From assembly GCA_009797885.1 (NCBI GenBank), contig WNKP01000006.1, forward strand, positions 186,001 to 250,000: a DNA stretch of 64,000 bases, read 5' to 3'. The stretch is from Flavobacteriaceae bacterium GF1 (lineage in GTDB: Bacteria > Bacteroidota > Bacteroidia > Flavobacteriales > Flavobacteriaceae). The number at the start of each line of letters is the position of its first letter. Positions within the stretch are counted from its first letter, which is position 1. The position numbers and the translations under genes were made by a program. This document shows, piece after piece, positions 1-44,174 of the stretch. The notes beneath the pieces are model-generated. The model ran no database searches. It saw nothing but the letters and a program-made list of their open reading frames with translations, and was not told the origin of the DNA.

Positions 1-2041
1 TTGCTTCGGCAATTTCTAATTTTTGAATCGTTAGATTCCCATTAAGAAATAGATTTTTCCAGGTATAGCTTGAGCTGACTTCAACACCTATGCTTTCTAC
101 GAAAGCTTCGTTAACGAATTGAGAGTTCTCCGGACCAAAGGGTATAGTTCTTATTAAATCTTCTTGGTCTCTAAAAAAGAATCCCAGGTCAACCTTTAAA
201 GCCTTACTATCATTAAATTGATTGGTATATCGAATCCCTACATTGTAATTATTACTTCGTTCCGGACGTAATTCAAAATTTGGTATGATGGCTGCAAAAT
301 CCCCAAAAACTTCGCCTTGCGTAGGAAAACGAATGGTTTTTTCATAGCTTGACCTCACAAACAATTTGGGATTGATTTGGTATTTAAACCCTCCTCCATA
401 GCCATTATCATTGGAATTCACAGTTCGTAATGGAATAGTGGTCACTCCGCTTGTATTATTGAACTGAATGGACTCAGCGCTATAATCGTAGTTTTTGAAC
501 AGTCCGAAAACGGTAAGTCTTTTGTCAAAAAATTTGAATGTGGTTTCTGCTCCTATAATGTTGGATTGTAAAGTAGATGGAATCGTATTGGGGTCAATCA
601 TTTCATCTCCCAAGGCAATCCTTGCTCCAATAGGGTCGTTGCCTTGTATAACGTATTTGTTGTTGAACTCGGATATGTTGATGTTTATGTCGTCTGTTAG
701 GTTGATTCTTAAGGTAAGTCTATGGGCAGTTCCTTCATCTTCTCCCTCCCTCTGGGTAGGGACACCCGAAATTTCCGATCCAACATCATTTTGCGTTATC
801 AACTGTTGCCCCCTCCAATTGTAAAGTGCCGTTGTACTATCAGTGACCTTATTATCTATCCTTGAAAAAAGACCATGGTACTTCAAATCCAACAAATTGT
901 CAAAGAATCGTTTTCTATACTTGACTTCTCCAATAAATGCTTCATTTTCCCTTTCCGCTTCACCTACCGCTAAGCCCGTAATGAACGTTCCATTTTGGAT
1001 TTGATTATCCCTTCTCGAAGCAATGAGGGAAGCTTCCAATTCATCGGCCACTACAATATCAGTAAACCTTAGCGCTCCTTTAACGAAAGAAGACCGAAAA
1101 CGGTCGTGAAAACGCCTCGCATCTATCCGTTCTTCAGAAATACTGGCCACTGTCCCATCTGACCTTAGATTCTCCACAAAATTTGGAATGTCACGCATTA
1201 AATAATCATTATCGGTATAGTTGACGAACGATTGTAAGGAAATTGCAATGTTGTCATTGAAATTATGATTGCCATTCACTGTTACCCTATGCGTATTGAA
1301 CGATCCAAAGGAATACGAAATCCTGGCATAATCTTCAGATCTTTCAAAAGAGACCAGGTTAATCCCCCCACCGAGGGCGTCGGTACCTATACCAACGGGC
1401 ATAACCCCTTTGTAAATATCAACCCTTGACAGTATATCCACAGGTATGTCATTTATCTGGAATGCTCCGCCATATAGTTCTAAGGGCATACCATCATAGT
1501 ATGTTCTTACGGCTTGTCCTGTCAATCCATTTAAATTGATGTTTACTTGACTTCCAAGGCCTCCGCTTTGCCGAACTACCACACCTGTGGATTGCTTTAT
1601 GACAGATTCTACCCCGAGTGCTTGATTCTGAAGTTTTTTTACATCCAGCGAGTTAATGGTGAGCGCTTTAGCACTTTGTCGTTGCTCTTGGGATTCTGCA
1701 AACAAAGTCACTCCTTCCAATGCTTCGGCCCCTTCCCGAAGTGTTACACTGAGTTTGACATTTTCATTTAGATCAATTGTTTTCTTGAAGGAAGTGAATC
1801 CAATAAAAGATATAGTTATGTTGTACGTGCCGGCATCAATGTTTGTTATTTTGAACTTTCCATTTTCGTCGGTTATTGCGTATTTGTTGCTCCCTTCCAA
1901 AACCACATTGGCAAAGGAAATCGGTGCTCCAGTAATCTCCTTCACCTCTCCGGTTATGTCTAGCTCTTGTTGTGAAAATAATTGGGTGGATATAAGGAAC
2001 AGTAGTAAGGGAATGGTTCTCATTAGTTGGTTTGTTTTCAT
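1..2041 (-). CDS. TonB-dependent outer-membrane receptor (C-terminus beyond window)
   Basis: An open frame runs from an ATG at 2041 off the left edge, so about 680 residues are visible and the barrel end is missing. A signal peptide (about residues 1-22, ending near LFSQ) is followed by a carboxypeptidase-regulatory-like domain (about 25-105, with TGEVKEITGAPI and FTSFKKT) and a plug domain (GVVVRQSGGLGSQVNINLNG, then YYDGMPLE). These mark an active importer of the FecA/siderophore-receptor type. It is last in a leftward run with a PepSY protein and two small membrane proteins, a set typical of ferric-siderophore uptake. A 30-bp motif shared with other iron genes ends 16 bp before the ATG, so iron-dependent repression is likely. 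Ligand unknown. A second in-frame ATG lies at 2023. Confidence 0.9.
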   Translation of the reverse strand, partial: MKTNQLMRTIPLLLFLISTQLFSQQELDITGEVKEITGAPISFANVVLEGSNKYAITDENGKFKITNIDAGTYNITISFIGFTSFKKTIDLNENVKLSVTLREGAEALEGVTLFAESQEQRQSAKALTINSLDVKKLQNQALGVESVIKQSTGVVVRQSGGLGSQVNINLNGLTGQAVRTYYDGMPLELYGGAFQINDIPVDILSRVDIYKGVMPVGIGTDALGGGINLVSFERSEDYARISYSFGSFNTHRVTVNGNHNFNDNIAISLQSFVNYTDNDYLMRDIPNFVENLRSDGTVASISEERIDARRFHDRFRSSFVKGALRFTDIVVADELEASLIASRRDNQIQNGTFITGLAVGEAERENEAFIGEVKYRKRFFDNLLDLKYHGLFSRIDNKVTDSTTALYNWRGQQLITQNDVGSEISGVPTQREGEDEGTAHRLTLRINLTDDININISEFNNKYVIQGNDPIGARIALGDEMIDPNTIPSTLQSNIIGAETTFKFFDKRLTVFGLFKNYDYSAESIQFNNTSGVTTIPLRTVNSNDNGYGGGFKYQINPKLFVRSSYEKTIRFPTQGEVFGDFAAIIPNFELRPERSNNYNVGIRYTNQFNDSKALKVDLGFFFRDQEDLIRTIPFGPENSQFVNEAFVESIGVEVSSSYTWKNLFLNGNLTIQKLEIAEA

Positions 2042-2057
2042 TTAAAACGGAGCTAAG

Positions 2058-2087
2058 ATAATTTTTATTTAGAATAAATAAAAATAA
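2058..2087 (-). promoter_or_regulatory. Candidate Fur-type iron operator, site A
   Basis: This 30-bp AT-rich element lies just before the TonB receptor. Read on the minus strand it contains TCTAAATAAAAATTAT and forms a perfect 11-bp inverted repeat (ATTTTTATTTA, spacer TTC, TAAATAAAAAT). By eye it matches 27 of 30 positions of site B (4467-4496) and 25 of 30 of site C (43455-43484) without gaps. Assignment to Fur is inferred from the neighbouring genes. Confidence 0.6.
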
Positions 2088-2131
2088 CTTTGAAACTAAC
2101 ACCTATATATTCAATGATCAGCTAAATACTT

Positions 2132-3802
2132 CTATTCCGGTTTTGTAGAGCTCTGTAGCATGGGGGTGGGCTTTTCCCGGGATATTACTTCTTCTGTTTT
2201 ATGCGCCTGTTGTTCTTCCTTGTTTTTGGTATTTTCAGAGGACCTTCCCTTTAAATAAAACTGGCAGACCAACACTCCGATGATACCGATGATCAACCAG
2301 GTGGCATCTACGCTGAAAACATAGAATTGTCCATTCAAGAGGGTATTCCAAATCCAGTCTCCGGTGACCACTCCATTTGCAATAGGAATCAATAGGCCCA
2401 AAATACTTCCGAGAAGGATATAGTTTCTATTGAGTTTTCGATAGTCATTCCAGAACAGCCCAATTATGGTGAGTACCAGCCATCCTAAAAAGAAAGTGGA
2501 ATTGACATAGAATACCCGTCCTGGCATTTCCATGGGTACGAGCTTATTGGCAATGAAAATAAGTCCCAATGCAGGAAACATGGAAAGGCAAATGGCCAAA
2601 TACACCTTGGTCACGCGATGATGGAACCTTCGTTGTTTAGAGGTATAAGATGGTTTATCCCTTGCGGTGCGCCAAATCATTACCCCGCTAATAATAATGT
2701 AACAGGTAATCATGGCCAGGATAAAGTAAATGATTTTGAGGAAAATTCCGCCAAAAGTGGCATAGTGCAGTTTTATAAGCACTGCCAAAGTGCCCTTGGA
2801 GTACGGCCTGGTTTCAGGTTCGGTTGCATCAAGCAATTTACCGTCCTTATGTCCGTAAATAAAAATACCATCCCCGCCAATTCCTTTAAAATCATCTATC
2901 CGAACACCTATGGTGCCGTCCTCCTTACCAAAATTATTGGTGTAGAGATAGGTGACCTCCGTTTCCGGGTATGCGGCATCCACCTTATGGTAAATCTCAT
3001 TAAAACCAATGCCATTTTCAATGGTCAGGGCATTTTCATCATAGGAGATTCCTGCACCGGGCCTAACGGCGTTTATAACTTCGGAGGTATCACCATTAAA
3101 CATTAAGAAAGCACTTGGGGCCAATAGAAGAATGGAAAGCCCCAACAGCGCACCTGTTACCGCATAGATAATTTGAAAGGGTAGTGTAATGAAGCCCAAT
3201 GATATATGTCCATTGGTCCAAATCTGTTTCCATTTGCCCTTAGTGGTGAAGGCATAGAATTTATTGACTATGTTTTTCCAATGGGTCAAGAGGCCCGTAA
3301 AGATGGCGAAAAGAAAAAAGAAGGCCACCAAACCCGAAAGGTATATCCCCACTATGGGAATTTGATGGAAATAATGCAGCTCATAAATGGTGCGTGCCAT
3401 ATGTGTTTTCTCTTCCGTCCCATCAGAAAGGACTTTATAGGTAACTGGATTTATGGCAGAATGGAAACGTTCTGTTTTTCCTTCGGAGTCCTTTGTTCCT
3501 CCGTAGAATTCAATCAATGGATTTTTTTTGTTCGGAGGGACCATTCCAAATGTGGCACCAGGGTCAAAATTCTGGATGTCACCCTTTATGGCCTCATAAG
3601 CCTTGTCATAGTCTACTGTTGCGGGGTCCACGGGTTCAATGCGGGCCTCGGGATTTTCCCATTGATAGAGTTCATCCATAAATAGGGCCACGGCACCGGC
3701 ATAAAAACAAACAAAAAGGGCAAAACTTATCACAATCCCTGAAACCGTATGGGTGTGGAACATCACATTGTGCAGTCGGGGTTTTAGGGCTTTCAGTTTC
3801 AT
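2132..3802 (-). CDS. PepSY-associated TM protein, probable ferric-siderophore reductase/uptake partner
   Basis: This 556-residue inner-membrane protein has a first TM helix at about 17-40, a large extracytoplasmic PepSY-type region, further helices near 148-170, 203-228 and 355-377, and a cluster of four at about 395-513, then a charged tail. PepSY_TM proteins (PiuB/FoxB type) sit beside siderophore receptors, and some are implicated in reducing or releasing iron from the siderophore. The gene lies between a DUF3649-like gene (27 bp upstream) and the TonB receptor (90 bp downstream), matching the conserved DUF3325/DUF3649/PepSY set. The reductase role is inferred from family and context. Confidence 0.85.
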   Translation of the reverse strand: MKLKALKPRLHNVMFHTHTVSGIVISFALFVCFYAGAVALFMDELYQWENPEARIEPVDPATVDYDKAYEAIKGDIQNFDPGATFGMVPPNKKNPLIEFYGGTKDSEGKTERFHSAINPVTYKVLSDGTEEKTHMARTIYELHYFHQIPIVGIYLSGLVAFFFLFAIFTGLLTHWKNIVNKFYAFTTKGKWKQIWTNGHISLGFITLPFQIIYAVTGALLGLSILLLAPSAFLMFNGDTSEVINAVRPGAGISYDENALTIENGIGFNEIYHKVDAAYPETEVTYLYTNNFGKEDGTIGVRIDDFKGIGGDGIFIYGHKDGKLLDATEPETRPYSKGTLAVLIKLHYATFGGIFLKIIYFILAMITCYIIISGVMIWRTARDKPSYTSKQRRFHHRVTKVYLAICLSMFPALGLIFIANKLVPMEMPGRVFYVNSTFFLGWLVLTIIGLFWNDYRKLNRNYILLGSILGLLIPIANGVVTGDWIWNTLLNGQFYVFSVDATWLIIGIIGVLVCQFYLKGRSSENTKNKEEQQAHKTEEVISREKPTPMLQSSTKPE

Positions 3803-3829
3803 GATGCTGGATTTACGCTTTTTTCATTG

Positions 3830-4111
3830 CTATTTATTTAGAAAGATGACCGCTCCAAGCAGAACGATGATCAAGAGATAGATACCCCATATCTTCCAGC
3901 CATTTTTGACCATAAAGGCAACGACCATTAAGGCTGCCCATAAAATAAAGGAAGTGTAACCTGTTGTAATGATAAGTCCTCCCTTTGATTCCAATAGGGT
4001 TCCTATGGCATTGTGAAAAAGAATCGTGACGATGAACCCACCTAAAATACCAGCAGTGGTCTTTAAAAATCGTTGGCCTCCGGAAGAGAGGTATTTTGCA
4101 TTGGCAGGCAT
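3830..4111 (-). CDS. Small DUF3649-like membrane protein of the iron-uptake operon
   Basis: This 93-residue protein has a short polar start (MPANAKYLSSGGQRFLKTTA) and three hydrophobic segments at about 17-38, 45-67 and 72-91. Its ATG directly abuts the stop codon of the upstream gene (no spacing), so translation is probably coupled. Length, topology and its place between a DUF3325-like protein and PepSY fit the DUF3649 'iron uptake' family. The family call rests mainly on context, as there is no catalytic motif. Confidence 0.7.
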   Translation of the reverse strand: MPANAKYLSSGGQRFLKTTAGILGGFIVTILFHNAIGTLLESKGGLIITTGYTSFILWAALMVVAFMVKNGWKIWGIYLLIIVLLGAVIFLNK

Positions 4112-4429
4112 TTATAGCGAGTTTTCAACAATGATGGACAATAGGCTTAGACCCACCATTAGGTAGGCGTATTTCTTGTTCAGGGGCAAAAACATAATGG
4201 TTAGGCTTAGCCCGAACATTAGGGTAATCAAAAAAATGACCAACCCGGTGGCCACTCCATTTTGCAGGCAAAGAACCACCATGGAAAGTAAGAACATGCC
4301 ATAGGAAATCAATCGTAAGGATTTTGGGTTTTCCCTTGCCCTTCTTTTGAAGTTGGCAAAGTAATCGGGAAAATGCTTGGATTTGGCGTAGAGCAAAGAA
4401 CATCCCAAAAAAACTAAAATTATGCCCAT
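4112..4429 (-). CDS. Small DUF3325-like membrane protein, first gene of the iron-uptake operon
   Basis: This 105-residue protein has an N-terminal helix (about 1-15), a basic cytoplasmic stretch (FANFKRRARENPKSLRLISY), a double-length hydrophobic region (about 43-82) and a final helix (about 88-103). That layout resembles DUF3325 proteins, found with DUF3649 and PepSY proteins in siderophore loci. It opens a leftward operon whose promoter shares a 145-bp spacer with the divergent Fur-family gene, and that spacer holds iron-operator candidate site B. Molecular function is unknown. Confidence 0.7.
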   Translation of the reverse strand: MGIILVFLGCSLLYAKSKHFPDYFANFKRRARENPKSLRLISYGMFLLSMVVLCLQNGVATGLVIFLITLMFGLSLTIMFLPLNKKYAYLMVGLSLLSIIVENSL

Positions 4430-4466
4430 TTCCTTTAACTGGATTTTAAGAAAACAAACATAAATA

Positions 4467-4496
4467 TTATTTTTAATAATTCTAAATAAAGATTAT
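4467..4496. promoter_or_regulatory. Candidate Fur-type iron operator, site B
   Basis: This 30-bp AT-rich motif has the core TCTAAATAAAGATTAT on the plus strand. It sits in the divergent spacer between the iron-uptake operon (start 4429) and the Fur-family gene (start 4575), so one site could control both. It matches site A at 27 of 30 positions and site C at 26 of 30. The dyad is imperfect here (8 of 11 arm positions). Confidence 0.6.
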
Positions 4497-4574
4497 TATT
4501 ATATCGTAACTATTTTTGGTGAGGGTTTCCTTAGCCAAAAGTTTGATTTTGGGATCATTTAAAAGAGTACAGTT

Positions 4575-5027
4575 ATGGCATGTGAAAGTAGTTTCAATAT
4601 TATCAAGGGGGTATTTACCTCTTTTCTAGAAGAAAAGGGACATCGAAAAACACCGGAGCGATACGCTATTCTAAAAGAGCTTTACGACTCCGAGGAACAT
4701 TTGGATATTGATACCCTCTATGTTCAAATGAAAGAGAAAGGTTTTAGGGTCAGCCGTGCGACGCTGTACAACACGATAGAGCTATTGCTGGAATGTAACT
4801 TGGTTCGAAAACATCAGTTTGTGGATAAAGTGGCACTGTATGAAAAGTCCTTTTTTAGCAGTAAACACGATCACATCATTTTAACGGATACCGGCGAGGT
4901 GGTTGAGTTTTGCGACCCACGGGTGGAATCCATTAAAAAAACCATAGAGGAGACGTTCAATATTAAAGTTGACAAGCATTCCCTATATTTTTATGGCGTT
5001 CGCAATGAGAGGTCCACAGCAACATAA
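4575..5027 (+). CDS. Fur-family metal-responsive transcriptional regulator
   Basis: This 150-residue protein has the Fur fold: a winged helix ([20 protein letters not shown], then [19 protein letters not shown], about residues 22-80) and a dimerisation/metal domain with HDHIIL and VEFCDPR. Divergence from a siderophore-uptake operon and shared flanking operators indicate an iron regulator (Fur) rather than Zur or PerR, though that is inference. The two CxxC pairs that hold structural zinc in many Fur proteins are missing; the usual CTxCG position reads LTDTG. The HxH metal-site residues remain. Start chosen at the first ATG, just after the shared spacer. Confidence 0.88.
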
Positions 5028-42855: not shown

Positions 42856-43245
42856 ATGAAGGCAAATTTGTTACATATCTTTTTGTTGCTGCTTTGCATA
42901 CCGCTTTCCGGGTTTTCCCAGATTGGGGGTCAGGAACCTGAATTTTACCAAAAATTGGGGATTCAGGATGCAACGCACGAACTTGCCTTGACCAACTTAA
43001 ATGAAGAGGATGAAAAGGACTTTTGGTCGGACCAAAAAGCATTCGAAAAACTGTTGGAGGAAAAAGACCCCATCGGACACCAATCCTACCTTAATGGAAA
43101 ATATGTGGTATACAGGGAGCACCAAATCCTCTGTGGCAATCGTTGCGAACACAGCTACGAATTTTTAAAGCAAATGGCCTACTATCTTATCAATGGCAAT
43201 GCGAGCAGTGGGGGTACAGAGGTCGTCCTTGCTCCAAAGCAATAG
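42856..43245 (+). CDS. Secreted hypothetical protein with two-Cys motif
   Basis: This 129-residue protein has a signal peptide (MKANLLHIFLLLLCIPLSGF) and an acidic middle (LTNLNEEDEKDFWSDQKAFE). One CGNRC motif lies near residue 97 (ILCGNRCEHSYEFLKQ) and may be redox-active or metal-binding. I do not recognise the family. It is convergent with the small Cys-rich gene and lies downstream of the ssb terminator, so it probably has its own promoter. Confidence 0.6.
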   Translation: MKANLLHIFLLLLCIPLSGFSQIGGQEPEFYQKLGIQDATHELALTNLNEEDEKDFWSDQKAFEKLLEEKDPIGHQSYLNGKYVVYREHQILCGNRCEHSYEFLKQMAYYLINGNASSGGTEVVLAPKQ

Positions 43246-43263: not shown

Positions 43264-43425
43264 CTACGCTACTTTCTTGAGCAAATCATAACAAGGGCAT
43301 TTTTTGCAGCGCTTGCTTTCCGACTTTTTATACTTTTTACAGCATTTGGTCTTGCACTTACCGGGATTTAAATCCCGTAACCTGGTCAGATCCGTTGTTT
43401 TAAGGGTTTGCTTCTTTTTGCCCAT
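43264..43425 (-). CDS. Small Cys-rich protein, predicted iron-regulated
   Basis: This 53-residue frame starts at ATG 43425 (MGKKKQTLKTTDLTRLRDLN) and ends at TAG 43264. It is very basic and has six Cys: KCKTKCCKKYKKSESKRCKK then CPCYD, a spacing suited to a metal or Fe-S site. A -7 box (TATATTTG, minus strand, 43434-43441) would give a near-leaderless mRNA, and iron-operator candidate site C lies 29 bp upstream of the ATG. It is next to ferritin, on the same strand. A role in iron homeostasis is inferred; no homologue of known function is recalled. Confidence 0.7.
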   Translation of the reverse strand: MGKKKQTLKTTDLTRLRDLNPGKCKTKCCKKYKKSESKRCKKCPCYDLLKKVA

Positions 43426-43454
43426 ACTGGGGGCAAATATAAGGCGAAACCCTT

Positions 43455-43484
43455 TTATTTTAAATAAATCTAAATAAAAATTCT
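43455..43484 (-). promoter_or_regulatory. Candidate Fur-type iron operator, site C
   Basis: This 30-bp AT-rich motif shares the core TCTAAATAAAAATT with sites A and B (25 and 26 of 30 matches). It overlaps the expected -33 region of the small Cys-rich gene, whose -7 box is at 43434-43441, so a bound repressor would block that promoter. Confidence 0.6.
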
Positions 43485-43486
43485 AA

Positions 43487-43648
43487 GATCCTGTTTGAGA
43501 ATTTGTGATTGGAATTGTTATAGGCCATTTTTAGTGCGGAACGAGGCAAAATTTTTGTGCATAGCCATAGTTACGGACTAAAATTTTAACAACGTGCCGT
43601 GCAAAAAGGGACCTAAGAAAACAATTGACAAATTCCCAAACAGAATCT
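43487..43648. repeat. 162-bp long imperfect hairpin, MITE-like
   Basis: The ends are inverted repeats: AGATCCTGTTTGAGAATTTGT (43487-43507; 21 positions) pairs with its counterpart at 43628-43648 at 19 of 21 positions. The inner arms continue to pair with small bulges (AATTGTT, then the AAAATTTT region) around a ~25-nt loop near GCATAGCCATAG. It starts 4 bp before the ferritin stop-codon bases and ends next to iron-operator site C. It has no ORF. A miniature repeat or an RNA processing structure are both possible. Confidence 0.7.
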
Positions 43649-43652
43649 AAAA

Positions 43653-44174
43653 CTATTCTTCCATAGTATCCGAAGCGGCGCTCTCCACGGTCAATTGCTG
43701 GATATCCCTGTCAAATAAATACAGTCCGCCTTTATCGTCGCCGATAAGGTTGATCTTATCCAAAACCGTTCTGGCCAATGCTTCTTCCTCCAATTGTTCG
43801 GCTACGTACCACTGTAGGAAGTTGTGGGTGGCATAGTCCTTTTCCTCAAGGGTGATATGAACCAATTCGTTGATGCTCTGGGATACAAATACTTCGTGGT
43901 CATACAATTTCTGAAGCATTTTCTGTAACGATCCAAATTCGGTTTCAGGTTCTTTAAGATCCGAGATTTGCGCATGGCCACCGCGTTCATTGACGTACTT
44001 GACCAATTTTAGCATATGCATGCGCTCCTCATCCGAATGGCCATACATAAAACCTGCCACGCCCTCAAGTCCGTTCACTTCGGCCCATGAGGCCATGGAA
44101 AGATAAACCTGAGAGGATTCCGCTTCTATTCGAATTTGATGATTTAGTGCTTTTTCGAGCTTTTGGGATAACAT
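43653..44174 (-). CDS. ftnA: Ferritin
   Basis: This 173-residue four-helix ferritin oxidises Fe(II) and stores it as a mineral core in a 24-mer. Ferroxidase ligands are seen in RIEAESSQVYLSMASWAEVN (Glu, Tyr) and GHSDEERMHMLKLVKYVNER (the ExxH motif), with further acids in LQWYVAEQLEEEALARTVLD. Length is usual for bacterial FtnA; there is no heme-binding Met of the bacterioferritin kind. It is third or fourth in a possible leftward run (HDAC, PAP2, ferritin) but 56 bp after PAP2, and a hairpin element and small iron-regulated gene follow. Confidence 0.95.
   Translation of the reverse strand: MLSQKLEKALNHQIRIEAESSQVYLSMASWAEVNGLEGVAGFMYGHSDEERMHMLKLVKYVNERGGHAQISDLKEPETEFGSLQKMLQKLYDHEVFVSQSINELVHITLEEKDYATHNFLQWYVAEQLEEEALARTVLDKINLIGDDKGGLYLFDRDIQQLTVESAASDTMEE

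Follow-up and report, generated by a model that had tools for sequence, protein, structure and literature searches.

We describe a gene of 53 codons, lying downstream of a ferritin gene in Flavobacteriaceae bacterium GF1, that is real, conserved, and uncatalogued in the libraries searched. Our preferred explanation, to which we give a probability of about 0.4, is that its product is a mini Fe-S protein, FhuF-like and stand-alone, whose synthesis Fur represses and which would help to withdraw iron from the adjacent non-heme ferritin when iron is short. The gene, the selection acting on it, the box in front of it, the adjacency to ferritin, and the cysteine pattern are the parts of this explanation that are read from the sequence. 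The stretch of DNA that was analyzed (64,000 nucleotides, hereafter the window) contains the following features:

43264..43425, minus strand: small gene, 53 aa, ATG start; N-terminus Lys-rich, C-terminal half Cys-rich
43294..43344, minus strand: CC-x10-C-x2-C-P motif, codons 28-44 of the small gene, without variation in an 80-row alignment
43434..43441, minus strand: -7 promoter element TATATTTG; among relatives, 114 of the 122 loci have an element TAnnTT[TC]G
43455..43477, minus strand: Fur-type box TTATTTAGATTTATTTAAAATAA, 23 bases, upstream of the small gene
43653..44174, minus strand: non-heme ferritin gene, 173 aa, upstream of the small gene and on the same strand (PF00210, PRK10304)
4575..5027, plus strand: fur gene, 150 aa, encoding the likely regulator; its own box lies at about 4468-4488

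A first-pass annotation of the window had proposed a small minus-strand gene at this place, encoding a basic protein with clustered cysteines. The gene is real: its frame and Cys spacing are kept in relatives, with selection at the protein level. The failure of the frame or of the Cys pattern to be conserved, named at the time as grounds for rejecting the gene, is clearly not what we found, since both are conserved. The translation of the minus-strand frame at 43264-43425, MGKKKQTLKTTDLTRLRDLNPGKCKTKCCKKYKKSESKRCKKCPCYDLLKKVA, is indeed basic (16 Lys, computed pI of about 10), with Cys at positions 24, 28, 29, 40, 43, and 45. Their clustering was correctly noticed, but not its extent, as the six Cys span 22 residues (five of them 18) rather than about 17. 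Four are invariant and, with a Pro, form the pattern C28 C29-x10-C40-x2-C43-P44.

Using the protein as a single query, we found a match in 31 of 99 relatives' genomes (E ≤ 0.001), and a 27-row profile matched 39 of 99, as well as 30 genomes in a sample of 395 from the phylum. A search of contigs by pattern confirmed at least 425 of at least 595 stretches, the best 80 of which were retained. The resulting locus set comprises 139 loci from three of these searches (the single query, the phylum sample, and the contigs), all with the core as defined by a loose motif, and 130 once exact duplicates are removed. Among these, 122 have CC-x10-C-x2-C and the remaining eight have x8 spacing. Near-identical strains persist among the 122 loci, and counts over them are therefore not independent. 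Longer frames found by a profile in three genomes (G279, G395, and G294) lack the Cys motif and were discarded.

The mean pN/pS over 7260 pairs (121 core segments) is 0.21, a rough value given that some Lys-rich pairs have a pS above 1. Third codon positions are the most variable, and this concentration rules out an RNA-only reading of the locus. Between the window and locus L003 there are 16 synonymous changes and 1 non-synonymous change. Residues K25, C28, C29, K31, K34, K38, R39, C40, C43, and P44 are invariant in the alignment, which comprises 80 of the 113 available sequences. The fifth Cys (C45 in the window protein) occurs in 103 of the 122 loci and the Cys shortly before the CC pair (C24) in 51, so neither is invariant. 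When the start is assigned to the codon preceding [GS]K-type residues, the loci begin with TTG (51), GTG (30), or ATG (39 of 120). The apparent ATG-GGT start of locus L021 (genome G055) is out of frame by one within an A run, through an assembly error or a real shift.

The small protein has no Pfam family match at E ≤ 1, and its sole NCBIfam match, to a siderophore ferric reductase model, is far below the cut-off of that model. Searching Pfam with eight relatives at E ≤ 10 returned Lys-rich chance matches only, a profile search of the PDB with the family gave no match at E ≤ 10, and the 53-aa protein has none among plasmids. The suggestion that standard resources miss the gene is therefore borne out for Pfam and NCBIfam, which give no family above cut-off. 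We found no paper on it in the open-access library searched, subscription journals and preprints being outside the scope of the search. Rfam gives nothing credible at the locus, its miRNA match being a chance one, far below the gathering score and on a repeat. The silence of the family libraries and the absence of the gene from one congener are what could be said for a chance open reading frame, but the wide conservation and the mostly synonymous changes refute it, and we place its probability close to nil. An AlphaFold model based on the 80 aligned relatives (pLDDT 59.9, pTM 0.26) is too poor to inform on fold or mechanism.

The upstream region of the small gene had been described as carrying a third copy of an iron motif and a -7 box, and we recovered both. 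The 19-base form of the box has its sole mismatch-free copy in the window at the small gene, and within 3 mismatches 2 copies are found against 0.09 expected by chance. Elsewhere in the window the box has two further copies, one at about 2066-2086 in front of a TonB receptor frame and the other at the position given above, upstream of fur. To describe the box across the family, a pattern was derived from the first 30 loci and then applied to all. It is found within 2 mismatches in 120 of 122 loci, compared with 7 of 365 control stretches, and free of mismatches in 90. The 114 loci counted above have the -7 element after the box, in 97 of them at an offset of 24-25, and the box therefore overlaps the promoter. 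Only 8 bases separate the -7 box from the ATG in the window. The almost leaderless mRNA that had been proposed would thus hold here, but it is not a family trait, as the gap is longer in most relatives among the first 30 loci.

Several observations suggest that this box is very probably the Fur box of the genome. Across the genome of the window, the derived pattern matches perfectly at six places, namely the small gene, three TonB receptors, fur, and position 21355 of contig C33, and four of the five copies other than that of the small gene are thus at TonB receptors or fur. The fifth adjoins an apparent IMP dehydrogenase gene (read by eye), which is not an iron gene. With 2 mismatches allowed the pattern becomes noisier in this genome (35 matches vs 13 in the control). 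The Fur consensus given for Riemerella in PMC5609570, ATTTAGAATTATTCTAAAT, fits the left arm of the small-gene box exactly and the right arm loosely. A literature-type Fur pattern matches 28 times, at 18 places, in the window's own genome, against 3 matches for the reversed control. Eight of the 25 frames beside these places, picked for their iron-related appearance, were scanned with Pfam and gave four TonB plugs, FUR, Fe-S_biosyn, GlutR, and DUF4856. The same pattern fits 110 of the 122 family boxes within 3 mismatches (controls 10 of 365), but only 39 within 2 (controls 3 of 365), which counts against the Fur reading. Regulation of the small gene by Fur is well supported as an inference, and the iron-regulated promoter of the first-pass annotation gains support from the box at nearly all loci and from its copies at iron genes. 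On this sequence evidence, the gene is very probably iron-regulated. At 2-5027 of the window, a 556-aa frame that looks PepSY-like by eye stands between a TonB receptor and fur, both of which have a Fur-type box.

The location downstream of ferritin was likewise confirmed, and it is shared by most relatives. The neighbour matches the Pfam Ferritin family (PF00210) with an E-value of 3.4e-38, as well as PRK10304 of NCBIfam, and in 94 of the 122 loci a same-strand ferritin lies upstream at a distance of no more than 1 kb. The box is present upstream of only 6 of these 94 ferritins, vs 120 of 122 small genes, which indicates that the two genes are controlled apart. Among 60 genomes of the same family, and with a ferritin cut-off of E ≤ 1e-70 that was our own choice, 25 have both genes, 9 the small gene only, 5 ferritin only, and 21 neither (Fisher p = 6e-5, uncorrected for kinship). 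Hence 9 of 34 genomes with the small gene have no close ferritin, which speaks against a role on ferritin, and 5 of 30 with ferritin lack the small gene. A further argument against this role comes from a congener (G002, locus L159), in which most of the small gene is lost and its first codons are kept, together with the promoter, the box, and ferritin.

The closest parallel to the cysteine motif is in FhuF, the ferric-siderophore reductase of E. coli, whose FhuF_C tail has the same CC-x10-C-x2-C spacing. According to PMC8068687, FhuF binds a [2Fe-2S] cluster through this motif, is derepressed by Fur at low iron, and has a potential of -0.36 V at pH 7.4. Fur control, known for FhuF, is also what we propose for the small gene. 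We inspected 11 FhuF-type loci and recovered the motif in 8, where the spacing is x10 in seven cases and x11 in one; by the search used, the other three are without it. An aromatic residue at CC+3 occurs in 7 of these 8 tails and in all 122 small-protein loci, and the last Cys is followed by a Pro in 6 of the 8 tails and again in all 122. However, FhuF has 262 residues, and the 53-aa protein has neither its reductase domain nor its N-terminal siderophore-binding domain. Unlike FhuF, it has a Lys-rich tail and stands beside ferritin instead of siderophore genes.

Profile comparisons give a mixed picture of this likeness. The Pfam model FhuF_C (PF11575) matches no family member tried, which argues against a FhuF-like reading; it has no match in 60 genomes of relatives at E ≤ 0.001 and, among the matches listed at E ≤ 10, none on the small gene. 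Weak matches to TIGR03950 were obtained for 25 of 27 members, the best with an E-value of 0.0089 and far below the cut-off of 137.9 bits, and TIGR03951 and PRK10647 were weakly matched by 3 members and 1 member, respectively. Only 4 NCBIfam models were matched at all, of which three are siderophore-iron reductases and the other was matched once. A profile-profile comparison with seven FhuF tails gave a probability of 66% and a score of 19.7. None of 100 full column permutations reached this score (17.3 at most), but 7 of 100 did when the Cys columns were kept, showing that the likeness beyond the cysteines is weak. We conclude that the small protein may work like the tail of FhuF without being FhuF itself; the spacing is common to both and homology is not established. 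Since the four invariant Cys match the ligand spacing of the FhuF cluster, an Fe-S redox role seems likelier than simple metal binding. The interpretation in the first-pass annotation is partly supported, and its metal-handling protein could be sharpened to a redox protein.

The preferred explanation may be laid out as follows; Fur binding, the cluster, the docking, and the electron transfer are the steps that we infer. When iron is plentiful, Fe-loaded Fur would sit on the promoter-overlapping box, the small gene would be off, and ferritin would fill. As iron falls, Fur would leave the box and the small basic protein would be made. Its four invariant cysteines would be the ligands of a [2Fe-2S] cluster, the Lys-rich tail would dock on the acidic shell of ferritin (computed pI of 4.7), and electrons passed to the ferric core would release Fe2+. 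The potential of FhuF favours this explanation when set against those of ferritin cores, which need low-potential donors (around -0.19 V for horse ferritin and -0.42 V for the A. vinelandii Bfr, PMC4771812). Iron release from ferritins is described as poorly understood in two reviews (PMC4771812, PMC7762939).

For non-heme ferritin, the role would be comparable to that of Bfd for bacterioferritin. In PMC7762939, Bfd is described as a small [2Fe-2S] protein encoded beside bfr, expressed differently from it, and driving iron release from the heme bacterioferritin. The small gene is similarly placed beside a ferritin-type gene and controlled apart from it, and a basic mini Fe-S protein under Fur repression, with an acidic non-heme ferritin as its neighbour, would fit the same role in iron release. 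The Cys arrangement of Bfd is CxC...CxxC, which differs from CC-x10-C-x2-C, and its partner is a heme protein whereas the neighbour of the small gene is a non-heme ferritin. Fer2_BFD (PF04324) does not match the 53-aa protein at E ≤ 1. No stand-alone Fer2_BFD was found in 31 genomes searched, all matches being in frames of 839-1191 aa. The small-protein family is a concrete candidate for iron release from non-heme ferritin in a large environmental group, carried by a gene without a name in standard family libraries. It might also offer a minimal FhuF-type cluster site, stripped of the enzyme around it, in which the unusual CC-x10-C-x2-C ligand set could be studied. A broader proposal sees in it the first partner dedicated to iron release from a bacterial non-heme ferritin: a Fur-controlled ferredoxin of 50-60 residues with a bare FhuF-type site, widespread among Flavobacteriaceae and belonging to a larger family of mini Fe-S proteins that Fur controls in Bacteroidota. 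We advance this proposal tentatively, as possible but doubtful.

This larger family is defined by a loop two residues shorter (CC-x8-C-x2-CP). A nine-row profile of this form matched 35 of 395 genomes of the phylum at E ≤ 0.01, some matches being members with x10. We examined 17 such loci and found a Fur-type box within 3 mismatches in 13, with a -7 element in 12 of those. Unlike the window protein, the x8 small proteins of other Bacteroidota have different N-termini and mostly other neighbours. No ferritin was seen by eye in the flanks of nine loci, some of which were domain-scanned, and the family is mostly not linked to ferritin, a point against a role on ferritin. Together with the same-family genomes that have the small gene without a close ferritin, and with an x8 form that follows a pyridine-nucleotide oxidoreductase gene (L028), these data speak for an electron carrier or ferric reductase of the FhuF kind, controlled by Fur and with a general role on siderophores or other ferric substrates, ferritin being only a convenient neighbour in many Flavobacteriaceae. 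We consider this rather unlikely, given the ferritin directly upstream in most loci, the association of the two genes over the 60 genomes (within the limit on kinship stated above), and an x8 form of another family (L160) that also follows a ferritin and has a box.

Two further alternatives concern the protein itself. FbpA, FbpB, and FbpC of Bacillus subtilis are small regulator proteins of the iron-sparing response, and a small basic protein acting on RNA, with a structural Zn site, might by analogy have the same role. Its 16 Lys in 53 residues would suit such a regulator, and the non-ATG start of 81 of 120 loci suggests a low, tuned output. However, the conserved half is the Cys motif and not the Lys tail, no Fbp or RNA-binding Pfam model was matched among the proteins scanned, and the Rfam result is equally unhelpful to it, making this reading distinctly improbable. 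A metal chaperone or metallothionein-like scavenger of Fe2+ or Zn2+, made in iron shortage, would accord with a small Cys-rich protein beside ferritin and with an open niche, as PMC4771812 states that, as of 2016, reports of an iron chaperone in prokaryotes were lacking. Against it, only four Cys are invariant, and the x10 and x2 intervals between them are the same in all 122 loci, which makes one defined site likelier than a loose thiol sponge; nor is there a metallothionein Pfam match for the 53-aa protein and eight relatives. We rate this scavenger as the more improbable of the two.

Some other elements were observed around these loci. In L028, the small frame between the oxidoreductase and the x8 protein looks ferredoxin-like by eye and has no Pfam match at E ≤ 1e-5. 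Loci L179-L204, from other Bacteroidota, encode small proteins whose cores resemble CCKKYKKGKRCKKCPG; Fur-type boxes precede them, and most are not near a ferritin. In the window, a 129-aa frame at 42856-43245 (plus strand) is convergent with the small gene and probably carries a signal peptide; neither Pfam nor NCBIfam gave a match for it, and at E ≤ 1e-3 it is conserved in 10 of 30 loci. Between ferritin and the small-gene promoter lies a 165-base repeat (43486-43650), of which 29 matching pieces were found in the genome and 7 places, itself included, are at least 92% identical over at least 158 bases. It looks like a MITE-type insertion, and genome G007 has around 165 bases fewer between ferritin and the small-gene promoter.
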